Assembly (NCBI RefSeq): GCF_037911585.1
Contig: NZ_JBAJNS010000001.1
Span: 3,776,001-3,840,000, forward strand
Source of the DNA: Streptomyces sp. GSL17-111
GTDB taxonomy: Bacteria; Actinomycetota; Actinomycetes; Streptomycetales; Streptomycetaceae
Direction of reading: 5' to 3'
DNA: 64,000 nucleotides
A program made the position numbers and the translations under genes. This document shows positions 18,009 to 30,338 of this stretch, piece after piece; within the stretch, counting starts at the first letter, position 1; each line of letters starts with the position of its first letter. Under the pieces are notes generated by a model. The model made no database searches. It was not told the DNA's origin and saw only the letters and a list, made by a program, of their open reading frames with translations.

Positions 18009-19664
18009 GTGTCCGTTCGTCCCCGGTCCGGTGCAGTAGTTCCCAAGCTCACGGCCCAGATGGCGCGGGCCAGCAACCCCCGCGGCACCACGGCGATGTG
18101 GGCACGTGATCACCTCGACGGACTCTGGAGCGACAGGGACTTCGCCTCCTGGTACCCGCGCGACGGCCGCCCCGGGCTCTCGCCGGCCCAACTCGCCACG
18201 GTCTGTGTGCTGCAGTTCCTGCTCAACCTCTCCGACCGGCAGGCGGCCGAGGCGGTCCGGTGCCGGATCGACTTCAAGTACGCCCTGGCCCTGGAGCTGG
18301 ACGACCCGGGATTCCACCACAGCGTGCTGACCGACTTCCGTGATCGTCTGTGCGAGGACGATCGCGCGGACCAGCTGCTCTCGTTGTCGCTGGAGCGGAT
18401 GCGGGAGGCCGGCATGGTCACCGAGCGCGGGAGGCAGCGCAGCGACTCCACTCAGGTCCTCGCTGCCGCGCGGGACCTCACCCGCCTAGAGCTGGTCCTC
18501 GAAGCGGTACGCGCGGCCTTGGAGGAAGCCGCTCAGCGGGCACCTGAGGTCCTGGACGGGCTGGTGGACAGCGATTGGGCCACCCGCTACGGGCGTCCGG
18601 TGCGCCTTCCCAGTCAGCCGAGTCACCCTGTCACCCGGCTCAAGCAGGCGGGAGCGGACGCCCGCCAACTCCTGGAACGCTTGACGCCCCACCAGCGCGG
18701 TCCTCGCGCGGAAGCGCTACGGAGGATCATCGTGCAGAACTTCCTCCTCGACGCCCGTGGCGGGTTACGTCCTCGCACCCAGAAGGACGGACAGCCCAAA
18801 GGAGCTGTGCGGATCGTCTCGCCCTACGACTGCGAAGCCCGCCGGGCCATCCGGGGCAATACCCGCTGGAGCGGCTATCTGGTCCACATCACCGAGACCT
18901 GCGAGACCGGCGCCCGGACCAACCTGATCACGGACATCGCCACCACCAGGCCGACCCGGGACACCGAGGCCCTCCCCGGCATCCACACCCGCCTCCGTGA
19001 CCGCCGACTGCTGCCCCGGCAGCACCTTCTCGACGGCGGCTACCTCTCCGTTTCGCTGCTGCACCGCTCCCTCCGCGACCACGAGGTCGAACTCGTCGGA
19101 CCCGTCAAAGCCAGCGGAGCATGGCAGAGCAAGGAACAGACCGGCTTCACCCGGGACGAGTTCTCTATCGACTTCGACCAGCGCCAGGTCACCTGCCCCA
19201 ACGGCAAAACCAGCCACATCTGGATCGAACCACCGGCCATGGCGCCCTACACCGTGGCCCGGTTCCGCCCACACCAGTGCGACCCGTGCCCCGACCGGTC
19301 TGCCTGCACCCGTGGCACCGCCGCCCGCACCGTGAACTTCCTCCCCCGACCCCTCCACGAGCTCCAGGCTCGAAACCGCACAGACCAGCAAGACCCCCAG
19401 TGGAGAAGGCTCTACGCCACCCGGTCCGGAGTCGAAGGCACCATCTGCGAGTTCATCAACGGACACCGGGCCCGCCGCAGCCGCTACCACGGCATCCGCA
19501 AGACACACGTGCAGCACGTCCTGACCGGCATCGCGATCAACATCGAACGCCTCGCCTCACGCACTACCCGACACCCCCACCGCCCTCGCTCCTCCACGAC
19601 CTTCCAGCAGTACCTCACCGCCCGCGGTCTGACCTGGCAATGCTGGTGGCGACAAGGCAAATGA
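18009..19664 (+). CDS. IS1182-family transposase
   Basis: The 551-residue protein has the family layout: N-terminal region MWARDHLDGLWSDRDFASWYP, then RIDFKYALALELDDPGFHHSVLTDFR, and a DDE core with aspartates in RSDSTQV (about residue 145) and LLDGGYLS (about 342) and the glutamate in SGVEGTICEF (about 476). A Cys-rich insert (QCDPCPDRSACTRG) precedes the last motif. GTG 18009 follows GAGGTG at good spacing. No frameshift or stop interrupts it. Confidence 0.9.
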   Translation: MSVRPRSGAVVPKLTAQMARASNPRGTTAMWARDHLDGLWSDRDFASWYPRDGRPGLSPAQLATVCVLQFLLNLSDRQAAEAVRCRIDFKYALALELDDPGFHHSVLTDFRDRLCEDDRADQLLSLSLERMREAGMVTERGRQRSDSTQVLAAARDLTRLELVLEAVRAALEEAAQRAPEVLDGLVDSDWATRYGRPVRLPSQPSHPVTRLKQAGADARQLLERLTPHQRGPRAEALRRIIVQNFLLDARGGLRPRTQKDGQPKGAVRIVSPYDCEARRAIRGNTRWSGYLVHITETCETGARTNLITDIATTRPTRDTEALPGIHTRLRDRRLLPRQHLLDGGYLSVSLLHRSLRDHEVELVGPVKASGAWQSKEQTGFTRDEFSIDFDQRQVTCPNGKTSHIWIEPPAMAPYTVARFRPHQCDPCPDRSACTRGTAARTVNFLPRPLHELQARNRTDQQDPQWRRLYATRSGVEGTICEFINGHRARRSRYHGIRKTHVQHVLTGIAINIERLASRTTRHPHRPRSSTTFQQYLTARGLTWQCWWRQGK

Positions 19665-19675
19665 GCCGCAGGCAC

Positions 19676-19697
19676 AAGATCCCCGACAGAGTCGCTC
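19676..19697 (+). repeat. Right inverted repeat of the IS1182 element
   Basis: This end, finishing GACAGAGTCGCTC, pairs perfectly with 17908-17929. Confidence 0.9.
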
Positions 19698-19968
19698 ACT
19701 GACCGGGATCGGGGCTTCAGCCTCGGTCGGGTCGGTCGCAGACAGCTACGACAATGCGATGGCCGAGGCGCTGAATGGCACCTTCAAGGCCGAGCTGATC
19801 GAGATGCAAGGACCGTGGCGGGACGTTGACCAGGTCGAGCGGGCGACCTTCCAATTGGTCACCTGGTACAACGAGGAACGGCTCCACTCCGCCCTCGAAT
19901 ACGTACCGCCCGCCGAGTACGAACGCGAGTGGTGGCGACAACAGGAAACCACCCCGCAGTCCGCCTGA
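19698..19968 (+). pseudogene. IS3-family transposase, C-terminal fragment
   Basis: From the IS1182 edge onward one frame reads SVGSVADSYDNAMAEALNG, then TWYNEERLHSALEYVPPAEYE and a stop at 19968. This is the typical end of an IS3-family OrfB, with the glutamate of the DDE triad present in AEALNG. The first two-thirds of the gene are missing. The sequence after the stop, about 19981-20001 (ACTCTACGAAACTCGGGGC), looks like the outer end of that element. Confidence 0.78.
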
Positions 19969-20000
19969 AACAAGATCACCGGACTCTACGAAACTCGGGG

Positions 20001-20314
20001 CAGCTCACCTGACCGCGGCCCGCGCCCATGGCATCGTCCAAGCCTGCCTCACCAGGCAGATCCTCGTGCTGGCCGACCGCGCCTACCAGGGCGCCGGCGC
20101 CACCGTCCGCACCCCGTACTACGGCCATCGCGACCTACCCGAGCACTATCAACGGTTCAACCGCGATCACGCCCGGCTGCGCGCACCCGGCGAACGCGCC
20201 TTCGCCCGACTGAAGTCCTGGCGAGCACTGCGCAGAGCCCGCTGCTCAACCCGACGCATCGGCCGCACCGTCCAAGCCGTACACGTCCTCCTGACCTGCT
20301 ACTACACAGGATGA
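20001..20314 (+). pseudogene. IS5-type transposase, C-terminal fragment
   Basis: The frame encodes ILVLADRAYQGAGATVRTPYY, NRDHARLRAPGERAFARLKSW and RTVQAVHVLLTCYY before a stop at 20312-20314. This is the end of an IS5/IS1647-like DDE transposase (D in LADRAYQG, E in GERAFARLKSW). It abuts the IS3 end with no start of its own. It is the third broken element in this pile. Confidence 0.75.
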
Positions 20315-20449
20315 AAGAGGTTCACTGACACAGCCTTGTACATGAGGGGCCGTTGAGCGGTGGTGCGTGTCTGACTGCGTGATAGCGCCACGAGCAGGGC
20401 GGCCTCGGCCGCCCGAGCCCCGAGCAGACGGGGCCGCCGCCGAGCGGCC

Positions 20450-22723
20450 TCAGGTGCCGTCGGAAGTGAGCGTGGCCATCATGCGGGCCACGCCCTCCCT
20501 CTCGGCCACCGTCGGCCCGGTCGAACGGGCGGGCGCAGGGCGTCTCGGGGTCCTCGGGGCGCTGAGGGACGATGCCGATGCCTCCACGAGGGCGCGGACC
20601 TTGGCGAAAATCTCCTCGTCAAGCCGGTAAAGGTCCCCATCCCCGGATTCGTAATGACGGAAGATGGCCTCCATCTCGGTCAGGTCATATCTGGACCCAT
20701 CACCGTGCTCCATCCAGCTCTCCAGAGCCCATTCGACGTAATCGTCCATGCGGCCTGCGACATACTCATACGCCTCTTCGCCTTTTTCGAAATCCGTCAG
20801 CAGTGAGGCGAAATCCAGGGCGTCGCTCAAGGATCGCCAATCCGAAAGATCGAACTCCATTATCCATTCGGCTGCCTGGTCGGCTGCTTGCGGGAGGAAT
20901 TCTCTGAGATCCTGCCTCTTCGAATCGCCGAGAAAGCTGAGAATGTCCTGAACCGTCTGTTGATCCCATGCTTCGCTGATCGCGCTGTCTTCGCTGATAC
21001 TCTGCCAACCAATGTCATGCACGCGCTCGGACGTCACAGCGGTTCCCAGCTTCAGGTAGAGCAGGGCCCGGTGGGCGTTGTCATGCGCGGAGTGGTGACC
21101 TTCTACCACGACGGTCTCCGACCGGAAGGCAAGCTCCGCACTCCGTTCCAACTCCGGCATGCAGCGCATCAAGGCTTTCAGTACCTGCTCCGCGTTACGG
21201 GAGGACAGCATGGACCATAGCGACTCGACCTGCTCGAAGAGCCGGATGCGACCGACGAAGTCCTTCATCTCGGAGTGATCGGAAGAGATGAAATCGCGCA
21301 TGTAGTCACGCACCGACGGGTTATGGAACTCCACGAACACCACTTCTCCGTGACGCACGCTCCTGAGCATCGTCCCGTCCAGTACCTTCAAGGCATTGTG
21401 CAGGTCCCGGAGTGCACCCCCCGATGAAGCCCAGACGCTTTCGAGGGTATCCATCCGGATGCCGGACAGGAAGGATAGTTGCGTTTTAAGTAGGAGGGTG
21501 TCAGATGGGCCGATTTGGTGGTTGACGATGTGACCCCAAACGCGGCCGGGGTCATTCAGGTTCGCAACCATTTCGGTCGCGATGCGCTTCCCGGCGGCCC
21601 CGAATGCTACAGCCTCGGACAGTGTCGCGGCGATGACGCGCGGATTGAAATTCTCGTGCTGGACAATGGGTGCGTACGCATCTGGAGATGCGAATATTGA
21701 CTTCGTGCGGGCCGGAAGGCTGGAGGCGGAGACGTGGTTGTAGAGGATTGATGCCCTCGCCCCGTACGTGTAATTGGCCACATCGAGCACGCACGTCTGG
21801 ATATCGAAACGGTGCCTATCGAGGCGCTCGTACCTCTGTCTGGCCTGCGCGAGAATGTACTCCCGCGTGGTGAGTAAAAGCCTCTTGTTGGGGGAGTTCG
21901 TCGCCCGCTGCATCAGAGATATGAGGCGGCCGTCCTCGTTCTTCCCCAGCTTTTCGTCAATCGCGGTCTGTCCCAGAAAATCGTCGTAGTAGAAAAGTTG
22001 AGGGACGCCAGGGTCCCATAGTGCATTTGCTTCCTCCGCGTCTTCGGCGATCTCTATGATGTCGTACCCGTGACTTGCGTAGTGAGCACACAGCACATGG
22101 CTGAGCGTGGTCTTACCTACTCCCGGAGCCCCGGCGACCACGCACACGTGCCGATTGTCAAGGAGTCGCAGCGCCTCCCCGAGGCTGCCGTTGTCGGCAT
22201 ACGTGCGCAGTGTGGCGTTGACTGCGTCGGCGAGGGCGTGGGAACGCGTGACGATGCTCTTGGACATGAGGGCGTTGAGTACCGAAGCGCTCGTGAGCCA
22301 GAGTCGCAGATGCCGCCTGACCACCTGATCGTGCTTGCGGAGAAGCGCATCGATGTCATCTTTGCCGTAGATGTCGCCCGGTGACCTGACGAACGGCTGC
22401 AGCATGTCGTAGAGCTTGTCCTTGGCGGCACGGCTGAGCTCGACCGATGTGGCAAGGACATAGCGCCCTGGCTTGAGATGGGCGAGCTTGGGGGCCTCGA
22501 CCTTCCGCATGTGGGCCAGCAGCTTGGCTCGGCCGGACCGGTGGAAGTGCTTGCACTGCACGATGAGAGCGGGATCGTCTCCCTGCATATGCCGCAGATC
22601 CACGCCTCCGTCCGGCCCGGAGGTGAAGATCTCCAGCCGAACGCCGAATTCCAGCTCGAGGAGGTCCTTGCACACGGCCTCGAAGTCGAAGTCCGTCAGC
22701 CTGCCCACGTCGAACGTTTCCAT
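20450..22723 (-). CDS. Mrr-like nuclease / STAND NTPase fusion, putative phage defence
   Basis: The 757-residue protein (ATG 22723) joins two modules. Residues 10-110 form a restriction-endonuclease-like domain: FDFEAVCKDLLELEFG, then Asp38/Asp42 in SGPDGGVDLR and the QCK motif at 56-58, the Mrr-type PD-(D/E)xK site. Residues about 185-450 form a STAND/AAA-type NTPase of the nSTAND3 kind, with Walker A GAPGVGKTT at 198-206 and Walker B QLFYYDDF near 245. The last 300 residues are helical and probably sense the trigger. STAND-nuclease fusions such as Avs proteins recognise phage proteins and destroy DNA. GC content is visibly lower than in core genes, supporting transfer. A GTG 39 bases upstream is an alternative start. 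Confidence 0.82.
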   Translation of the reverse strand: METFDVGRLTDFDFEAVCKDLLELEFGVRLEIFTSGPDGGVDLRHMQGDDPALIVQCKHFHRSGRAKLLAHMRKVEAPKLAHLKPGRYVLATSVELSRAAKDKLYDMLQPFVRSPGDIYGKDDIDALLRKHDQVVRRHLRLWLTSASVLNALMSKSIVTRSHALADAVNATLRTYADNGSLGEALRLLDNRHVCVVAGAPGVGKTTLSHVLCAHYASHGYDIIEIAEDAEEANALWDPGVPQLFYYDDFLGQTAIDEKLGKNEDGRLISLMQRATNSPNKRLLLTTREYILAQARQRYERLDRHRFDIQTCVLDVANYTYGARASILYNHVSASSLPARTKSIFASPDAYAPIVQHENFNPRVIAATLSEAVAFGAAGKRIATEMVANLNDPGRVWGHIVNHQIGPSDTLLLKTQLSFLSGIRMDTLESVWASSGGALRDLHNALKVLDGTMLRSVRHGEVVFVEFHNPSVRDYMRDFISSDHSEMKDFVGRIRLFEQVESLWSMLSSRNAEQVLKALMRCMPELERSAELAFRSETVVVEGHHSAHDNAHRALLYLKLGTAVTSERVHDIGWQSISEDSAISEAWDQQTVQDILSFLGDSKRQDLREFLPQAADQAAEWIMEFDLSDWRSLSDALDFASLLTDFEKGEEAYEYVAGRMDDYVEWALESWMEHGDGSRYDLTEMEAIFRHYESGDGDLYRLDEEIFAKVRALVEASASSLSAPRTPRRPAPARSTGPTVAEREGVARMMATLTSDGT

Positions 22724-22915
22724 GGTCCCGCCCCCTGCCTGATCATCCGCGGGCCGGGCCACTAGCCAGGGCTGCGGGCCCCGAAGTCACGCTGAACGGA
22801 GCGTGGATCAGCATTCCATGAGTCGCGATGCCATGCGTGCGGCTCGCGCTGGCCAGGGCTTTGGATACGGCAGAGCAGCTGTGTCGTTCGAAGACGGCGG
22901 GGTCGTAAGCGCCGA
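22724..22915. other. Gap upstream of the STAND gene
   Basis: No convincing gene lies in these 192 bases. They separate the STAND gene from the GNAT gene on the same strand and presumably hold the STAND gene promoter. Confidence 0.35.
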
Positions 22916-23440
22916 TCAGCGGACGACGCGGATCATCACGGTGAGGATCGGCGAGGCCGGTGACGGCTGGCTCTGCCCGATGTCCTCGTACCCCCACGAC
23001 CTGTAGAGCGCGTGGACCTTTCCGCCACCGGCGGCCGGGTTGACCATGAGCGTGACATACGGCTCGTCGTGCGTGGCGGGGAGAGCATCATGGATGCGCC
23101 GGGCAGTACCGGTCTTCCTCCAGGCTGGCCGGACGCCGATCTCCTTCAGGGCCACGGCCGGTCGCTCGGTGTACTTCTCCGCCAGCGCGGGACTCGTGCG
23201 CTGCCAGTAGCGGTCACCGTGCTCGATAGTGTTTCCGTAGGCGCAGCCGACCGGACGCCCGTCCGCGTACGCGAGGACGACCGTGAACCCCGGCTCGGTG
23301 CTGTGCCGGTCCAGGCGCTCGCCGAACGCGGTGATCGCGTAGTTCGGCAGGTGGAGCAGCGGGACGCGCACGTCGGCGTACACGTCGAGGGGATCGCCGC
23401 GGATGGTGTCGAGACCGGTGAAGGTGCGCAGTCCGATCAC
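22916..23440 (-). CDS. GNAT-family acetyltransferase
   Basis: The 174-residue protein has a GNAT fold: FTVVLAYADGRPVGCAYGNTI (strands 2-4), AVALKEIGVRPAWRKTGTARRIHDAL (the acetyl-CoA loop, here with R-x-T-G-T-A rather than Q-x-x-G-x-G) and VNPAAGGGKVHALYRSWGYEDIG. The start is GTG 23440, without an obvious ribosome-binding site. Similar proteins are common in Streptomyces; the substrate is unknown. It lies between two likely defence genes and could be a cargo gene. Confidence 0.82.
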   Translation of the reverse strand: MIGLRTFTGLDTIRGDPLDVYADVRVPLLHLPNYAITAFGERLDRHSTEPGFTVVLAYADGRPVGCAYGNTIEHGDRYWQRTSPALAEKYTERPAVALKEIGVRPAWRKTGTARRIHDALPATHDEPYVTLMVNPAAGGGKVHALYRSWGYEDIGQSQPSPASPILTVMIRVVR

Positions 23441-23609
23441 GGGGGCCGTGGTCGTGCGGCACCCTCCATGTGGCGGTGTGCTCGGTCCAGGTCTGGACGG
23501 TGGTGCTGCCGGGCGCGGTAGCGCGCAGCGCGGCCCCGAATTCCTGCAGCATGTGCGCTACGCGAGCATTTCGGGTAGCGGCGGTGGAGGAGACCGGGCC
23601 TTGGGCCAA
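23441..23609 (-). other. Possible short ORF or frameshifted leader before the GNAT
   Basis: From 23609 the minus strand encodes VAHMLQEFGAALRATAPGS and TVQTWTEHTATWRVPH, which looks like real protein; it then runs on, out of frame with the GNAT gene, into low-quality sequence ending at 23214. Either it is a small gene whose 3' end overlaps the GNAT, or a frameshift has split a longer gene. I cannot decide. The remaining bases to 23954 hold no visible gene. Confidence 0.3.
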
Positions 23610-23954
23610 GGGCCCCGCTCCCGGACCCGCGCTGTGGTGTCGAGCGAAGTGGCAGCTTTCCCTGCTCCCACTGGTCCGCTCGCTGCGTGAGCGTTGCTCG
23701 GGGGCGGCATCGGGCCAGCTCTGAAGGTTCTCGCCAGGGAATCCGTGGTTCGGCTTGGACGGGCGCGAGATGCACAGGTTGCGCCTGGATCGGTCCGAAT
23801 CGGTCAGATCCGTTCACGGTGCCAACAGGTCACCCCCACAAGGCATAAGATGATGCGCCTGGGGTGGTTGTTGCCCAGGTCAATGTGTGTGGCGAGGCGC
23901 CGCTGGTGGCTTGCCTCTGCCCCGAGACGCTAGGGAACGGAGCGGCTGAGAACG

Positions 23955-25826
23955 GTGCACCTGCACAGCTTCACCGTGTGCGGATTCCGATCCCTCAAGG
24001 ATGTCCGCGATATTCCAGTCAGCACACCGACCATCCTTGCCGGCCAGAACGACGGTGGTAAGAGCGCGGTGCTTGCCGCGCTGGCTTTTCTCGTGGGCAA
24101 TGAGCAGTTGACTGAGGACGATCGTACCTACGAGCTCGACTCTCCCGATGACGTGGACGTTGATGACTCGGCGCCTCTCCTGCGGTGTTCGACCACATGG
24201 GTGGATGGGCAGTTCACCCTCGACCCCTGGGAGTTGGAAACGTTCGGCTTCCCGGTAGAGGAGTTGCGCGTACGGCGGCGTGCCGTCAACGGCGAGGAAC
24301 CCGTCCTTGAGTGCTGGGCGCCGCTCGCGGACGACGAGCGGCTGCGTGACCCTTCTAAGCTGTCCCTCAACGAGGTGAGAGCCCTCGCCAAGCAGTTACT
24401 TCCTGAGCTGTCGTCCATTAAGCGCGGCGACATCGAGCCAGCCCTGTGCAAGTACGGCATGGCTCACGCATCGGCGTCGGGCTGGGTTCCTGCTCCGAAG
24501 GGGATGGTGCGCCGCATGCCCCGGCTGATGCCGTTCGACGGGAAGTCCGCCGATCCCGACGCTGCTGTGAAAACCGCGCTGATGGGCCGTTACCAGGTAC
24601 ATATGGCGGATCCCACGCTTGAGGGGCAACTGCAGTCGATCGAGGCCGGAATCAGGGAACGCCTTCAGGGTGACGCTCGGTCTCTGTGCGAACACATTCA
24701 GAGCCGTTGCGACGACCTCACCGAGGTAGACGTCGAGCCCGTGGTCTCGTTCACTCACGGTTTCCGGGGAGCGCCGCTGCGGATCGCCCGTACGAAGGGC
24801 GAGACCGTGGGCCTGGAGCGTTCCGGCCTGGGCAGCGCACGCCGTATCTCCTTGGCGATCTGGGAGTGGAACAGTCGGCTGCTCACGCGTGAGGAGTTCG
24901 CCGACGTCGACTCTCCAGCGGATCCTGAGGCCGCCGAGGACACCCCGCCGCCGGTACAGACGATCGTGATCTACGACGAGCCGGACACGCATCTCGACTA
25001 CGGACACCAGCGCAAGATTATGCAGCTCATCCGTGACCAGTGCGCACTGCCCCATGTGAATGTCATCGTCGCCACCCATTCCATGAACCTGATCGATGGT
25101 GTCGACATCGCCGATGTCGTCCATCTGCGGCTGGAGCACGGCCGGACGCTGATCGAGCGACTGGGGGCTGACACCCACGACGATATCGATATCCACCTGG
25201 GTCGCATCGCCGCAGCGGTGGGCCTCCGCAACTCCGTTCTGCTACACGAGCGTTGCTTCCTGGCTGTTGAGGGCGACACCGAACAGCGGGTGATCCCCAT
25301 GCTGTTCCGGCTGTCCGAGGACCAGTCTCTGCAGTCGGCTGGCGTTGCCCTGTGGGCGTGCTTCAACAACGAGGGGGCGCTGCACCTTGCCCACTATCTG
25401 GTCGAGCACGGCCGCTCTGTGATGCTCATGGTGGATGCCGACAGCCGGACCTTGCCCAAGGGTCTCTTCAAGGAAGCCCGTCTCCAACAGTTCTTCGGCA
25501 GCGCTGTCGACGACGTGGTCCGTTTCGTGGGTGAGCCGGACTCCTTCAACGAGTTGGAGGAACTGTTTCCGGACGACCTGTGGGCCGAGGCCGCCAATGA
25601 ACTTTGGCCGAAGGGTGAGCTGTGGACCACGGACGACTTCACTGCTCAGCGCGGCAAGAAGTTCAGCAAGGAAGTGTTGAACATGCTCCGCAGCCGCAGC
25701 ACGAGCGGGCCCAGCGGCAAGCCCGACATGATGTTCGGGCTGGTGAGCACGCTCACCAGCCCTGATCAGGTGCCCGCACAACTGCGTGAGGTCTTCGGTG
25801 AGATCAGAAAGCTGGCCGCAGGATGA
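23955..25826 (+). CDS. OLD-family ATP-dependent nuclease (class 1 type)
   Basis: The 623-residue protein pairs an ABC-type ATPase with a Toprim nuclease. Walker A is GQNDGGKS (30-37); the signature-like ERSGLGSARRIS precedes Walker B VIYDEPDTHLD (about 339-347); H-loop ATHSMNL follows. The Toprim domain starts near residue 433 with FLAVEGDTEQ (metal-binding Glu about 437) and has VDAD near 493-496. No UvrD/GajB-like helicase lies next to it, so a class 1 stand-alone OLD is more likely than a Gabija pair. Its family includes phage P2 Old, which excludes other phages. GTG 23955 has only a weak ribosome-binding site. Confidence 0.85.
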   Translation: MHLHSFTVCGFRSLKDVRDIPVSTPTILAGQNDGGKSAVLAALAFLVGNEQLTEDDRTYELDSPDDVDVDDSAPLLRCSTTWVDGQFTLDPWELETFGFPVEELRVRRRAVNGEEPVLECWAPLADDERLRDPSKLSLNEVRALAKQLLPELSSIKRGDIEPALCKYGMAHASASGWVPAPKGMVRRMPRLMPFDGKSADPDAAVKTALMGRYQVHMADPTLEGQLQSIEAGIRERLQGDARSLCEHIQSRCDDLTEVDVEPVVSFTHGFRGAPLRIARTKGETVGLERSGLGSARRISLAIWEWNSRLLTREEFADVDSPADPEAAEDTPPPVQTIVIYDEPDTHLDYGHQRKIMQLIRDQCALPHVNVIVATHSMNLIDGVDIADVVHLRLEHGRTLIERLGADTHDDIDIHLGRIAAAVGLRNSVLLHERCFLAVEGDTEQRVIPMLFRLSEDQSLQSAGVALWACFNNEGALHLAHYLVEHGRSVMLMVDADSRTLPKGLFKEARLQQFFGSAVDDVVRFVGEPDSFNELEELFPDDLWAEAANELWPKGELWTTDDFTAQRGKKFSKEVLNMLRSRSTSGPSGKPDMMFGLVSTLTSPDQVPAQLREVFGEIRKLAAG

Positions 25827-26420: not shown

Positions 26421-27245
26421 TCAAACCAGTTCAGCAGCCCGGGAGCGCAGCGCTGGGACGAGTTCGGGATGGTCTCCGCGTGAGGCCGACTGCAGTAGCT
26501 CGGTCACGACGATGATCTGGGCGATGCGTCCGAGTTCCGTCTTGAGTACGGGGAAGGCGTCACGGACGCGCTGGGCGAAGCGGGGAACGAGCAGGGAGTA
26601 CGCCAGCAGCATGGCAGCGTCGTGGCCTACCGGTGCCAGGCCGAAGCCCTCCCAGTCGAGCAGATAGGGGGTGGTGCTCGTGAGGTTGGCCGTGTGCAGG
26701 TCTCCGTGCGCCGTCGCCCAGTCCGTGATCTTCGGGGCAGGCATGCCGAGGAAGCGCGGGACGCTGCGGTCCACCCACTCCTGTCGTACGGCCACGCGGT
26801 CTGTGGGGGCGACGCTCACGTAGTCGAGGTCGGTACGGAGGGAGTGCCACCAGGCGGTCGGCAGGTCTGGGTCCGTGTGCAGGACGGGGCTGTGGGAGCA
26901 GATAGGCTCGGCGACGTACTGGTGTAGCTCGGCCTGGTAGGCGTAGCCGTCGCTGCTGGACTCCGTGGTGTCGTGGAGCAGGGGCTTATGAACGTGCCCG
27001 TCGAAGAGTGCGGCGGCCTGGCGATTGCCCTCCCAGATCTTTCCTGCGGCTCTGTCCTGTGGCGTGGAGAGCAGACGCAGCCAGCAGGCGCCCCGGTCCG
27101 GGTGCTCGACGCGGCTGCTGAGGGTGCGGCCGTGCCAGCCCCAGACCTCGGGGCCGGTGACTGTGACATCCAGCGTCTCAGCAGACTGCGCGAAGACCCG
27201 GCGCATGCGCTGCTGGTCCGTAGGGTCAGCCGGCGGCGAGTACAT
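26421..27245 (-). CDS. APH-like small-molecule kinase, last gene of the peptide operon
   Basis: The 274-residue protein has the aminoglycoside/choline kinase core: catalytic HGDLHTANL (about 179-187) and metal-binding LLDWEGFGLAPVGHD (Asp about 196), then a helical end. The N-terminal lobe is recognisable but divergent (GPEVWGWHGRTLSSRVEH). The family phosphorylates hydroxyl groups of antibiotics, sugars or other small molecules, and sometimes peptides. Its start overlaps the end of the aldo/keto reductase gene by 20 bases, so both are surely cotranscribed. A role in phosphorylating or detoxifying the operon product is inference. Confidence 0.75.
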   Translation of the reverse strand: MYSPPADPTDQQRMRRVFAQSAETLDVTVTGPEVWGWHGRTLSSRVEHPDRGACWLRLLSTPQDRAAGKIWEGNRQAAALFDGHVHKPLLHDTTESSSDGYAYQAELHQYVAEPICSHSPVLHTDPDLPTAWWHSLRTDLDYVSVAPTDRVAVRQEWVDRSVPRFLGMPAPKITDWATAHGDLHTANLTSTTPYLLDWEGFGLAPVGHDAAMLLAYSLLVPRFAQRVRDAFPVLKTELGRIAQIIVVTELLQSASRGDHPELVPALRSRAAELV

Positions 27246-28134
27246 CCAGCACCTTTCGCAGTGTAGGGACAGGGAGGGCCGGGTTCCGCAGGGCGGCTTG
27301 GGCTTCGGCCCAGTGTGCCGGGGTGGAGGCGGAGAGCAGAGTCCGCGTCACCCCGGGGCAGGACGCCGCCGCCAGCAGGCATGCCTGGACGGTGGTGAGG
27401 TCCGGGTTCAGCAGCGCGGTGAGTTCGCGGGTGGCCAGGTGTGGCAGTTCGCCGCCGAAAAGGGGTGCCGAGGCGTACACCTGCCATCCGAGGCCGGCCG
27501 CCTGAGCGATGGGGCCATCGCCGTTCAGGGCCTGGGCGAAGGCGGTGGCGGTGACGAGGGATACGGGCAGCTGGATGGCCCGTAGGTGGTGCTGTTCCGT
27601 GCCGGCGGCTTCGGTGGCCAGCCGGTGCAGGGCAGTGATGCTCAGGGCGCCGGTGTCGAAGCCGTCCCAAGTGGCGACGCCGTATGAGGTGAGGGTGCCG
27701 GCGGCCGCTTCTGCTTCGAGGGCGGCAAAGGTGCCGCGGAGGGCTTCGTAAGGGTCGCCGACGGTGCGCTCGGGGTTGTGGGCGAAGACGAGGTCCAGGC
27801 GGCCGCGGCCGAGTTCGGTGCGGTTGCGGGCGCATTGCCAGTGGACGTACGGGCTGCTCAGGCAGTGCCCGTGCTCCGCGTCAACGCTGGTGATGACTCC
27901 GTCTGAAACAGCATCCTTGGCGGATTGGCCGGTCAGGAATCCGACCTTGGTGGAGACCTGAACGGAATGCTGGGTGAGAACGGGGGCGAGCAGCGGCTGC
28001 GCCTGCCCACCGAGGTAGTTGGGTGCGGTGTCAAGCCACGCGGTGCCGGGGTCGGTGGCCGCGCGGCCAACAGCGTCGTTGAGCGCGGAGGGGCGGAGGC
28101 GATAGGTGCCCAGCCCCAGGGCTGCCGTCGTCAT
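27226..28134 (-). CDS. Aldo/keto reductase family protein
   Basis: The 302-residue protein has the whole catalytic tetrad: Asp35 and Tyr40 (WLDTAPNYLGG), Lys63 (VSTKVGF) and His119 (LVFAHNPE). The barrel continues with SYGVATWDGF and YASAPLFGGEL. It would reduce a carbonyl using NADPH. The start overlaps the JmjC stop by four bases (ATGA) and its end overlaps the kinase start, so it is the middle of a coupled enzyme trio. Confidence 0.83.
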   Translation of the reverse strand: MTTAALGLGTYRLRPSALNDAVGRAATDPGTAWLDTAPNYLGGQAQPLLAPVLTQHSVQVSTKVGFLTGQSAKDAVSDGVITSVDAEHGHCLSSPYVHWQCARNRTELGRGRLDLVFAHNPERTVGDPYEALRGTFAALEAEAAAGTLTSYGVATWDGFDTGALSITALHRLATEAAGTEQHHLRAIQLPVSLVTATAFAQALNGDGPIAQAAGLGWQVYASAPLFGGELPHLATRELTALLNPDLTTVQACLLAAASCPGVTRTLLSASTPAHWAEAQAALRNPALPVPTLRKVLDVLAAG

Positions 28135-29324
28135 CGTTCGTTCCCCTCCACTGCGATCGCTTGGCCGCTCATCAGCTCGGAGACGACGGCCGCCACCTCA
28201 GCGATCGAGATGCGAGCCGCTGCAGCCAGCTCACCGAGAGGCATGGTGCGGGGTGCGACGGACATCAGGCGCTGGAGTAGCGGCAGGGCTTCCTCGGCCA
28301 TCTCCCACTCGTTGTCGCAGGCTCGGAACACCACTCTGCTCCCGGTGGCCACGGGCTCCAAGCGGGCTCGTGTGGTGGTCAGCCCTACGCGTACCGCCGG
28401 ATCTGCGGGGATACCGGCGATGTGGGGCAGGCTCGGCCGCAGACGAGTGAGGTCGGTTCCATCGAGCATTGCCGTGTACCGGTCGATGAGGTCTGGAGCT
28501 TCCAGGGCGGATACGACTTCTCTGCGCAACCCATCCAGGTAGGCGGCCCGCTGCGCAGCCGACGCGTGTACAGGCAGGTCTTCACGCAGGACGTCGTGGC
28601 GGCGCAGGTCGTCGGCGAGCCAGGACAGCAGCTGTGCGCCGGTGGTGGTCTGGAGGCCGAAGGTGAGATGAAGGGAGCGCTCGCCCTCTGAGGCGGCCAC
28701 CGAGTGCCACCAGCCGCGCGGGAGGTACAGCACGTCCCCGGGGCGCAGTACCAGTTCCGCGACCGGCTCCTCCGGCGGAGGCTCAGGTTCGTCGGTGTCC
28801 TTGTGCATGGGAGCTGTGCGGGTCGGCCCGTACAGCTTCCAGCGCTTGGCGCCGTCGATCTGGATGACAACGACGTCGTGGTCGTCCCAGTGCACGCCGA
28901 AGCCCTCGCGGGCGGTCCACGACGCGTACAGGTTGACCTGCACGCCGGTGCGCAGCCACTGCTCCAGCTCCATCGCGGCACGGCTGACGGGCGGGTGGAG
29001 TTCGTCGACGGCGTCGATGACGAGGGAGGCGCCCTCGGCGAGAAGGGCGTGCAGCTCGGCGGGGTGCAGGCGCTGCCAGACGGTGTGCCGACGGGTGGTG
29101 ACCGGGGTGGTGTAGCGGTAGGCGGGCAGCATCTCGCCGTCCGCGGACAGGCGGAGACGGGGCGGATCCAGGCGATGGGTGGCGAGGATGGTGTTGACGT
29201 CGCCCCACGTGACCAGTCGGCTTGGGTCGGGAACGGCGGTGGGGACGTAACGGTGGTGGCGGTGGAGCACCTGGGCCAGGAACTCGTCCTGGCCCAGGTG
29301 CGCCGCCAGGTTCAGCGGCGACAA
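28131..29324 (-). CDS. ROX-type JmjC oxygenase (Cupin_4)
   Basis: The 397-residue protein has the JmjC iron site His145-x-Asp147 (GVHWDDHDVVVIQIDGAKRW) and His207 (LPRGWWHSV), followed by a helical region and a winged-helix end (about 340-395). This three-part layout is that of ribosomal oxygenases (YcfD, MINA53, NO66), Fe(II)/2-oxoglutarate enzymes that hydroxylate Arg or His in proteins. It begins at TTG 29324, placed by GGAAGGAG five bases upstream, only 16 bases after the stop of a 48-residue peptide. That peptide is therefore an attractive substrate. Fe-binding residues are intact. Confidence 0.84.
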   Translation of the reverse strand: MSPLNLAAHLGQDEFLAQVLHRHHRYVPTAVPDPSRLVTWGDVNTILATHRLDPPRLRLSADGEMLPAYRYTTPVTTRRHTVWQRLHPAELHALLAEGASLVIDAVDELHPPVSRAAMELEQWLRTGVQVNLYASWTAREGFGVHWDDHDVVVIQIDGAKRWKLYGPTRTAPMHKDTDEPEPPPEEPVAELVLRPGDVLYLPRGWWHSVAASEGERSLHLTFGLQTTTGAQLLSWLADDLRRHDVLREDLPVHASAAQRAAYLDGLRREVVSALEAPDLIDRYTAMLDGTDLTRLRPSLPHIAGIPADPAVRVGLTTTRARLEPVATGSRVVFRACDNEWEMAEEALPLLQRLMSVAPRTMPLGELAAAARISIAEVAAVVSELMSGQAIAVEGNER

Positions 29325-29340
29325 CGCGTCTCCTTCCGAA

Positions 29341-29487
29341 TCAGTCGTTGCCGTCGGAGCGGCCGGTGCTGCCGCCGTCGGACGGGGTGACGCCGCGCTC
29401 GCGGGCGGCCTGGATCCGGCGACGTGCCTTGACCAGTCCGGCCTGGGCCGGACCGGCCGTCGGCGTGGTGGCAGGGGTGTGAGGCAT
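29341..29487 (-). CDS. 48-residue peptide, putative modification substrate
   Basis: A strong AGGAGG site five bases before ATG 29487 and tight spacing to the JmjC gene support translation. The peptide has three parts: a Thr/Pro/Ala-rich start (MPHTPATTPTAGPAQ), a basic predicted helix (GLVKARRRIQAARERG) and a flexible Ser/Gly/Asp end (VTPSDGGSTGRSDGND). It has no Cys and no signal peptide. The layout of leader helix plus small polar tail would suit a RiPP precursor; Arg and Asp/Asn residues are possible hydroxylation sites. I recognise no named family, so it could equally be a small regulator. Confidence 0.68.
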   Translation of the reverse strand: MPHTPATTPTAGPAQAGLVKARRRIQAARERGVTPSDGGSTGRSDGND

Positions 29488-29601
29488 TGCTCCTCCTAGA
29501 GCCGATGGATGAAGTGGCATTGCTGACCCACCTCGGACGCCGCTCGGCCTGTCCAAGCGGCGTAGTGGCTGGACCGTCCGAAGCGGGGTCTTGCGGCCCG
29601 C

Positions 29602-29655
29602 CCCTGCCGGGACTTCTCGAAGTAGGGAACATCTCGATCGGTACGTCCGGCAGGG
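29602..29655 (-). terminator. Nested hairpin between membrane peptide and 48-aa peptide genes
   Basis: Arms CCCTGCCGG (29602-29610) and CCGGCAGGG (29647-29655) are complementary; inside the loop, ACTTC/GAAGT form a second small hairpin. It lies just after the 40-residue ORF and 115 bases before the peptide gene. It may be a terminator or attenuator, or may stabilise the downstream transcript. Confidence 0.4.
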
Positions 29656-29663
29656 ACGGGAAC

Positions 29664-29786
29664 TCAGGGGCCGGCCGGGGCGGCGGAGACCGCGATGCCG
29701 ACTACGAAGCCGCACGAAGCGGAGATCAGCACGATCAGCAGTGGGCCCGTGTAGCGCGCCAGTCGGGCCACGGCGCGGCTCATCAT
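29664..29786 (-). CDS. 40-residue single-pass membrane peptide
   Basis: ATG 29786 overlaps the DUF7848-like stop as ATGA. The peptide has a basic N-terminus (MMSRAVARLARYTG) and one hydrophobic segment (PLLIVLISASCGFVVGIAV) ending in SAAPAGP. It is too short for normal gene-length cut-offs, but coupling to the upstream gene argues that it is real. It could anchor or export something, or be a small toxin-like membrane peptide. Confidence 0.55.
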   Translation of the reverse strand: MMSRAVARLARYTGPLLIVLISASCGFVVGIAVSAAPAGP

Positions 29787-30022
29787 GGCTTCCACCACGC
29801 CCGCCAGAGCCGGGTGATGATCTCCCGGTGGCTGTGATGCGAAGGATTGCGGCCACCGTGCACGAGCATCCGGTTCTGCGGTTTCGCGGAGTCGACGCTC
29901 GTTGGCGAGTTCTCACCGCAGACTGCGTACTGCATCGCGTAGGTGGTGGGCTCGGCGTCGGGCTCCCGGTCGGGCTGAAGGGTCCACTCCTTGTGGCACA
30001 TGACCGCTCGGACGGCTGCCAC
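29783..30022 (-). CDS. DUF7848-like small protein
   Basis: The 79-residue protein has MCHKEW near the start, then TTYAMQYAVCGENSPTS and GGRNPSHHSHREIITRLWRAW, which I recognise as a recurrent small protein of Streptomyces regulatory or RiPP-like neighbourhoods; the number DUF7848 is from memory. Usual relatives have more cysteines, and some appear replaced here (MQYAVCG). The start is GTG 30022 or ATG 30001. It heads the minus-strand operon. Confidence 0.6.
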   Translation of the reverse strand: MAAVRAVMCHKEWTLQPDREPDAEPTTYAMQYAVCGENSPTSVDSAKPQNRMLVHGGRNPSHHSHREIITRLWRAWWKP

Positions 30023-30338
30023 CCGTGCTTTCGAGGATCTGGGCGAGCCGGAGGACTGGTCGGTCGCTCACCAGAAGCTGGCCTTGGCCCATCGTGGCGC
30101 CGGCGATCTGAAGCAGGCCCTGCACTACATCGACATCGCACGCACCACTGGCACCGTCGACTCCCCGATGCAGCGGGTCCGGTTGGACACCGCCTACGGG
30201 CACATCCTTCTGTCGGATGCGGCGACCCGGAATGATGGACTGTCCGTCCTCGACCAGGCGGCACAGGTGGCCCGGCAGTACGGGTTGAGCCACCAGCTGC
30301 GCAGCATCGAGGGCATCCGAAAGGACCAGCAGGGATGA
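30000..30338 (+). pseudogene. C-terminal remnant of a TPR regulator
   Basis: The frame has TPR-like helices (WSVAHQKLALAHRGAGDLKQ, HYIDIARTTG, RLDTAYGHILLSDAATRNDG) like the end of XRE/TPR regulators in Streptomyces, but starts with no HTH, and its 5' end overlaps a gene on the other strand. A stop at 29976 closes the frame upstream. It may be a truncated gene, or a short protein from ATG 30000. Its stop overlaps the YdcF start (ATGA), so the original operon link is preserved. Confidence 0.55.

Follow-up and report, generated by a model that had tools for sequence, protein, structure and literature searches.

A candidate RiPP-like operon in Streptomyces that pairs a ROX-type JmjC oxygenase with a short peptide of near-invariant tail

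The ROX-type JmjC oxygenases are best known as modifiers of the ribosome; NO66, MINA53, and YcfD act on His or Arg residues of ribosomal proteins (as their structure titles also state). Here we analyze an operon in a stretch of 64,000 nucleotides from Streptomyces sp. GSL17-111 (contig NZ_JBAJNS010000001.1, positions 3,776,001 to 3,840,000; hereafter, the window), in which the gene for a 48-residue peptide precedes those for a ROX-type JmjC 2-oxoglutarate/Fe(II) oxygenase, an aldo/keto reductase (AKR), and a kinase with the aminoglycoside phosphotransferase (APH) fold. In our judgment the operon probably specifies a new class of products resembling the ribosomally synthesized and post-translationally modified peptides (RiPPs), with a near-invariant, Asp/Asn-rich core that would be oxidized by the JmjC enzyme and probably phosphorylated by the APH-fold kinase. 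This reading is based on a conserved gene set, selection on the tail of the peptide, intact active sites, and modeled folds. If it is correct, the class extends across Streptomyces, Kitasatospora, and another family of the same taxonomic class, and an encoded peptide partner would supply dedicated substrates to a whole bacterial branch of the ROX enzymes; it also raises the question of what would hold a ribosomally made product so nearly constant.

Neither a JmjC enzyme in a RiPP pathway nor an APH-fold protein encoded in a RiPP cluster of Streptomyces is without precedent. BipG of the biphenomycin pathway is, like the enzyme in the window, a JmjC 2-oxoglutarate oxygenase, and it hydroxylates the γ-position of an ornithine (Orn) within a ribosomal precursor (PMC12707348). 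According to the available text of that article, the Orn is made from Arg, and the cluster includes a multinuclear non-heme iron-dependent oxidative enzyme (MNIO), a B12 radical S-adenosylmethionine enzyme, and a TldD-type protease (PMC12707348). The operon in the window has AKR and APH genes instead, and the core of its peptide is without a conserved Arg or aromatic residue.

Lanthipeptide clusters of the SprPT type constitute 'class V'. SprPT is an APH-fold protein (PF01636) that, as in the window, is encoded beside a ribosomal peptide in Streptomyces; the available text assigns it to dehydration/cyclization in a RiPP cluster that also encodes the HopA1-type SprH3 (PMC7794033). Unlike that cluster, the window's family has peptides almost devoid of the Cys needed for (methyl)lanthionine (1 of 108 unique peptides, L205), and no HopA1, flavoprotein, or M16 gene was recognized among the neighbors of the window's group, which were named by eye with no family scan for these genes.

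RiPP recognition elements (RREs) are defined by a βββ-ααα order, and RRE-like domains are fused to PF08007 JmjC domains in fish and algae, with the closest bacterial homologues in RiPP-like contexts (PMC12710340). The JmjC enzyme of the window resembles these proteins in its C-terminal βββ-ααα domain and in the RiPP-like contexts of the bacterial homologues; we found no precursor family named for the latter in the available text, and the words aldo-keto, phosphotransferase, and cupin are absent from the main text (PMC12710340). The literature searched, with subscription journals mostly outside it, contained no paper on the window's peptide family or on the JmjC, AKR, and APH set. The initial annotation had called the pathway undescribed; within this literature that is fair for the peptide family, whereas JmjC enzymes in RiPP pathways (BipG) and RRE-like JmjC proteins in RiPP-like contexts were in print. 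The near-constant company of the peptide gene and its enzyme genes in many Streptomyces and relatives suggests that a family of ribosomal peptides modified by these enzymes has yet to be described.

The peptide family and its gene set

In an alignment of 108 unique peptides (L046 and L206 were dropped because the script found no ATG start), the N-terminus varies in length and sequence, whereas both a central helix region, GL[LVI]xx[RK]RxIxAARxR, and a near-fixed tail, SD…G[RKV][STG]DxND, are conserved. Columns L25, D46, G51, D54, N56, and D57 are invariant, with D46, D54, N56, and D57 partly preselected by the motif used to spot the peptides (D...D.ND). For 17 loci with the window's tail type, the ratio of nonsynonymous to synonymous polymorphism (pN/pS) is 0.32 in the last 13 codons vs 1.22 in the N-terminal part; for 32 loci of a second clade, the values are 0.12 and 0.67. 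The low ratio in the tail implies that the 48-residue peptide is not a chance open reading frame (ORF); that is, a short ORF under selection lies in an operon with enzymes of predicted modifying role. The front had been expected to be conserved and the tail variable; the alignment and pN/pS reverse this, and they suggest one product held constant, not a diversifying one. The window peptide has no match to a Pfam or NCBIfam family, and one of 20 relatives compared with NCBIfam matched weakly (E 0.037).

We then consider the genes that accompany the peptide in the window's JmjC group (group A; the more distant JmjC groups B, C, and D are described below). The JmjC gene was found in 53 of 245 genomes of the order (E ≤ 1e-30). 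A scan of named genomes gave 453 JmjC relatives, of which the best 80 are from Streptomyces, Kitasatospora, Streptacidiphilus, Actinacidiphila, Wenjunlia, and one record titled 'Actinobacteria bacterium'. The locus sets L002-L031 and L032-L111 partly overlap, so we counted distinct JmjC sequences and excluded those below 250 bits; among the 128 distinct loci (at least 250 bits), the peptide is encoded just upstream in 126, the APH-fold kinase is present in 125, and the AKR in 117. By motif, the peptide was found upstream in 109 of 110 loci, that of L046 being more distant and L030 being without one. The same four-gene set occurs in another family of the class (L143-L147).

As a check independent of the motif, 392 genomes of the genus were searched with a profile of the peptide; JmjC was sought in them at E ≤ 1e-80, and the genome lists were compared by hand. 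JmjC was found in 56 genomes, the peptide in 55, and both in 50, that is, the peptide is present in 50 of 56 JmjC genomes vs 5 of 336 genomes without a JmjC match. Two of these five are marginal (E 3.5e-4 and 5.2e-4), two have the peptide beside broken JmjC pieces (L227, L228), and the fifth (L229) has no JmjC in the 8 kb examined. The six JmjC-only genomes include four at 301-326 bits, which appear to represent another subfamily, as well as L199 (412 bits) and L030/L189 (609 bits). A peptide homologue is therefore found beside orthologous JmjC genes nearly everywhere, and its absence, which the initial annotation had named as grounds for abandoning a RiPP-like pathway, was not observed.

L230 (G440) retains the peptide, AKR, and APH genes, while its JmjC gene, of the window's family, is split by an insert; a 586-residue ORF in the insert resembles, by eye, the maturase of a group II intron.

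Two genes that had been counted as operon members are accessory. By tblastn, DUF7848 was found in the window and in five further loci (6 of 110 in all). A small sense ORF with a transmembrane (TM) segment lies upstream in 34 of 126 loci, compared with 3 of 126 for the antisense control, so both genes are outside the core. The AKR gene retains its place as a member in most loci but is missing from one clade. On pSV2 and pSglau1, the 48-residue peptide gene is also called by RefSeq, under the label of hypothetical protein. A phage origin was considered and rejected, as none of 50,697 phage records has a JmjC match. Among the plasmid records (25 of 69 from Escherichia), matches H60 and H63-H80 are E. 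coli plasmids of ~7.9 kb with a JmjC-type cupin protein (27-28% identity to the window JmjC), the gene for which adjoins NTF2/DUF4440-type genes.

Predicted enzymes and candidate sites of modification

Catalytic residues were counted across relatives of all groups. The JmjC triad (H145/D147/H207) is present in 118 of 118 relatives, and a model of the enzyme (38 sequences; predicted local distance difference test, pLDDT, 91.8) contains a winged helix, so that the intact HxD...H triad and winged helix read from the sequence are both borne out. The model matches NO66 (Z 24.9, root mean square deviation (rmsd) 6.9, 373 residues aligned), MINA53 (Z 23.8, rmsd 7.2, 367 aligned), and YcfD (4liu; Z 22.6, rmsd 4.3, 336 aligned), followed by YxbC (Z 18.0); with its iron triad and predicted full-length ROX fold, the protein conforms to the ROX/JmjC_2 enzymes. 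The likeness to NO66, MINA53, and YcfD (PDB 4ccm, 4bxf, 4csw/4liu) extends over the whole length (Z 22.6-24.9); however, the sequence identity is 18-21%, and a dedicated peptide gene lies upstream of the window JmjC. The fold and these top matches would also suit a ribosomal-protein hydroxylase (ROX proper, acting on Arg or His) with the upstream ORF as a translational leader, as would the hairpin that precedes the peptide gene in some clades (see below). We regard this as very improbable: the JmjC gene is patchy in the genus (56 of 392 genomes) and found on plasmids, unlike a housekeeping modifier of the ribosome, and a leader would not need an invariant C-terminal tail with low pN/pS.

In the model, residues 321-386 of the JmjC protein have the βββ-ααα order of an RRE (DSSP strands 321-324, 330-335, and 338-343; helices 344-356, 363-370, and 374-386). 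ROX proteins generally carry a winged helix, so the RRE-like fold is by itself weak evidence.

The APH-fold protein has the residues of a kinase, that is, HxDxxxxN and the metal-binding Asp (H180, D182, D197, and E199 in 92 of 92 relatives and N187 in 91 of 92), and its activity is predicted. Its model (pLDDT 95.8) has the common APH fold; the best match is a putative aminoglycoside phosphotransferase (3csv; Z 16.8, rmsd 3.2, 237 aligned), followed by antibiotic, choline, corramycin, and amicoumacin kinases. Sequence searches of the PDB gave no match for the APH-fold protein (E up to 1) or for the AKR (E up to 1e-6). Many of the top fold matches are drug kinases, as expected if the operon were a cassette for self-resistance or resistance: the APH-fold kinase (with the AKR) would then render harmless a toxic product or an antibiotic from outside, and the JmjC and peptide genes would only be linked to it. 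We consider this improbable, because the kinase gene overlaps the AKR gene and is kept in 125 of the 128 JmjC loci, and because a distant, convergent APH relative accompanies the group B JmjC genes.

Which residue of the tail would be oxidized? The initial annotation noted that the peptide is Arg-rich, as it is (6 Arg in 48 residues), and that ROX enzymes hydroxylate Arg or His in proteins. The position of R43 in the window peptide is Arg in 85, Lys in 31, and Val in 10 of 126 peptides, and the Val residues require three changes on the JmjC tree (L024 group; L097/L108; L020/L021; the tree was built with FastTree, and 41 of its 123 inner branches are open). Arg at this position is therefore unlikely as a required target, and we rejected it as such; two other well conserved Arg residues (106 of 108 and 101 of 108) are located in the central helix. 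The Asp and Asn residues of the tail are unchanged, and this conservation favors their oxidation; the likeliest JmjC sites would be the invariant Asp/Asn, which would become β-hydroxy-Asp/Asn.

The AKR tetrad, described earlier as full, is conserved wherever it was counted (D35 and Y40 in 69 of 69 relatives, K63 in 79 of 79, H119 in 82 of 82). The residue before the second Asp of the tail is Ser/Thr in 115 of 117 loci with the AKR and Gly in 8 of the 9 peptide-containing loci without it; the ninth (L044) has neither AKR nor APH, and its JmjC match ends at residue 277. This pattern hints weakly that the AKR acts on the Ser/Thr hydroxyl. The tie is not established, however, because the replacement of Ser/Thr by Gly in the AKR-less clade is one independent pair on the tree and because L146/L147, from another family, have the AKR yet have Gly at this position.

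More distant JmjC groups and the proposed pathway

A short peptide, with a related helix and a tail rich in Asp and Gly, is also encoded before the JmjC gene in 8 of 9 loci of group B, 7 of 7 of group C, and 15 of 15 of group D; L224 and L225 (116 and 127 bits) were left out of the group D count, and the peptides of L178 and L174 (groups B and D) were seen separately, not by motif. Group B includes a second JmjC copy in the window genome (L183), with the tail SDNAGSSGDSPWPGGDGNLHDGE; a convergent, distant APH relative adjoins the JmjC gene in 9 of 9 loci, that of L183 being without a Pfam match of its own and APH-like by alignment. All 7 loci of group C encode tails of the SDSDGSDG type, and all 7 have a convergent sucrase/ferredoxin-like gene. 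Group D (L172-L176, L207-L216) has peptides of the type MDP.EVEVEDLAEVTSRD.TAGGDSDGTDSSSDFI, with tails such as DSDGTDSSSDFI (15 of 15), encoded between the genes for a prolyl oligopeptidase (just upstream of the peptide, 15 of 15) and the JmjC enzyme. The hhalign probability is 65% for the A and B/C peptides and 67% for the B/C and D peptides, so these appear weakly related as a chain.

The hairpin mentioned above, TCCCGCCGG-loop-CCGGCGGGA, directly precedes the ribosome site in several clades, as seen in the 5' regions of L183, L023, L026, L018, L132, and L071. Perfect stems of at least 7 are present in 23 of 124 cases vs 2.6% of letter shuffles. In a covariation set of 12 rows, picked for having the hairpin, 94.4% of cells pair vs 41-63% in slid controls. 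Three of five measures, including the covariation score and the number of cells changed on both sides, were reached by 0 of 500 shuffles; the three pairs changed on both sides were reached by 33 of 500 and the further pair types by 79 of 500. A 28-base pattern of one group A leader occurs at one place in the window genome (6.03 Mb) with 3 mismatches (backward control, 0); this place, C1:1731114-1731141, is ~20 bases before the group B peptide gene of L183, so a cis element seems to be common to groups A and B. In the window operon the hairpin is absent (best stem 3), and Rfam gave no family at its gathering score in six loci.

As a special case of the pathway proposed here, the tail could be a metal-binding hydroxy-Asp ligand, that is, a ribosomal metallophore. 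The tails are Asp/Asn/Ser-rich throughout, and an iron-box-like site (at least 15 matches in 19) was found in 5 of 7 group C loci and shortly before an FhuF-like reductase gene, downstream at variable distance, in 14 of 15 group D loci (the contig of the fifteenth, L207, has <3 kb downstream). At the same threshold, no box was found in 1.54 Mb of the window's group (L032-L111, 80 loci) or in five group A loci (L167-L171) from five genomes with box-bearing group D loci. The box belongs to the neighboring reductase gene, however, not to the peptide operon, and the scanned loci of the window's group have none; L199, alone among the JmjC_A-labeled loci in carrying boxes (three), is without a peptide. 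A metallophore seems doubtful to us, and iron regulation of the window operon was rejected for want of a box in the 1.54 Mb scanned.

In the oxidation and phosphorylation pathway that we favor, the helix region of the 48-residue peptide would be the recognition part and would dock on the winged-helix (RRE-like) domain of the JmjC enzyme. The JmjC domain would oxidize the tail SDGGSTGRSDGND, to judge from invariance most likely at Asp/Asn; the APH-fold kinase would phosphorylate a tail hydroxyl, either Ser/Thr or a new OH; and the AKR, where present, would convert alcohol to carbonyl or the reverse, with the Ser/Thr that precedes the second Asp as a possible site. The tail hardly changes, so a near-identical product is expected in all hosts; such constancy would suit a role as signal, cofactor, or metal ligand more than that of an antibiotic under diversification.

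Several observations weigh against this pathway. The constancy of the tail is unlike most RiPP cores; the sites of modification are proposed from conservation alone; and the Gly of L146/L147 does not follow the AKR. L030/L189 keep JmjC and APH, but the peptide was not found. The group A and D peptides have no direct profile similarity (hhalign). No peptide was seen, by motif and by eye with no profile, beside JmjC genes of ~35-41% identity (L184, L185, L200-L203) or in L199; such relatives indicate that a peptide substrate does not follow from the fold by itself. (L184 has a BTAD-type regulator gene nearby, and an amidohydrolase gene is close to L185.) Finally, no gene for a protease or exporter recurred at a constant position around loci of the window's group (the 45 largest neighbor clusters from 120 loci, named by eye with no family scan); not every RiPP requires such genes.

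The lack of such a gene in those clusters, together with a tail and helix region conserved throughout as in a small functional protein, and an APH model closest to small-molecule kinases (3csv and the corramycin and amicoumacin kinases), would be explained if the peptide were no precursor but a small, stable protein that partners or regulates the JmjC enzyme, as a docking factor, an inhibitor, or an antitoxin-like factor would, with a small molecule or another protein as the substrate of the enzymes. The tail is nonetheless hydrophilic and Gly/Ser/Asp-rich, its fixed residues include ones that an oxygenase or kinase could modify, and in group D a peptidase gene accompanies that of the peptide; we judge this explanation unlikely.

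More broadly, and tentatively, with our confidence a little short of even, a large, undescribed RiPP superfamily of Actinomycetes may exist in which a ROX-type JmjC enzyme reads an [L/F]xVxVExLxxVxxR-like helix and oxidizes an Asp/Asn/Gly-rich tail, with interchangeable partners (AKR and APH, APH, or prolyl oligopeptidase with iron-reductase neighbors); the window's group would make one near-invariant hydroxylated, phosphorylated peptide as a signal, cofactor, or metal ligand, not a weapon.

The operon in the window and its surroundings

The six minus-strand genes described in the initial annotation are all present (Table 1), with an AGGAGG ahead of the ATG of the 48-residue peptide gene, the stop of which is 16 bases 5' of the TTG start of the JmjC gene. 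The tight packing claimed for them holds for most, with overlaps or short gaps, but 176 bases separate the genes for the membrane peptide and the 48-residue peptide. The two small peptides are without a confident Pfam family.

Table 1. Genes of the operon and the adjacent regulator remnant (positions in the window).
Feature	Positions	Strand	Match or overlap	Remark
DUF7848 protein	29783-30022	-	PF25232, E 2.2e-28	accessory
40-residue single-TM peptide, RYTGPL... motif	29664-29786	-	ATGA overlap with DUF7848 gene	accessory
48-residue peptide, proposed RiPP-like precursor	29341-29487	-		N-terminus varies; helix region GLVKARRRIQAARERG is conserved and tail SDGGSTGRSDGND near-invariant
JmjC 2-oxoglutarate/Fe(II) oxygenase, ROX fold	28131-29324	-	PF08007 (JmjC_2), 3.7e-30	TTG start
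Aldo/keto reductase (AKR)	27226-28134	-	PF00248, 2.5e-10	4-base overlap with JmjC gene
APH-fold kinase (HGD....N ... DWE)	26421-27245	-	PF01636, 2.7e-6	20-base overlap with AKR gene
C-terminal remnant of a divergent XRE-TPR-type regulator	29991-30338	+	residues 243-348 of 348	whole in locus L034

In L034, the divergent regulator is intact (348 residues), and two further genes lie between it and the DUF7848 gene; neither of these has a match in the window, where the regulator is reduced to its C-terminal residues. Beyond the APH gene, 18060-25826 is possibly a variable or defense region: by eye, an ORF at 18060-19664 (+) resembles a transposase, the gene at 20450-22723 (-) a restriction endonuclease, and that at 23955-25826 (+) an AAA/OLD nuclease.

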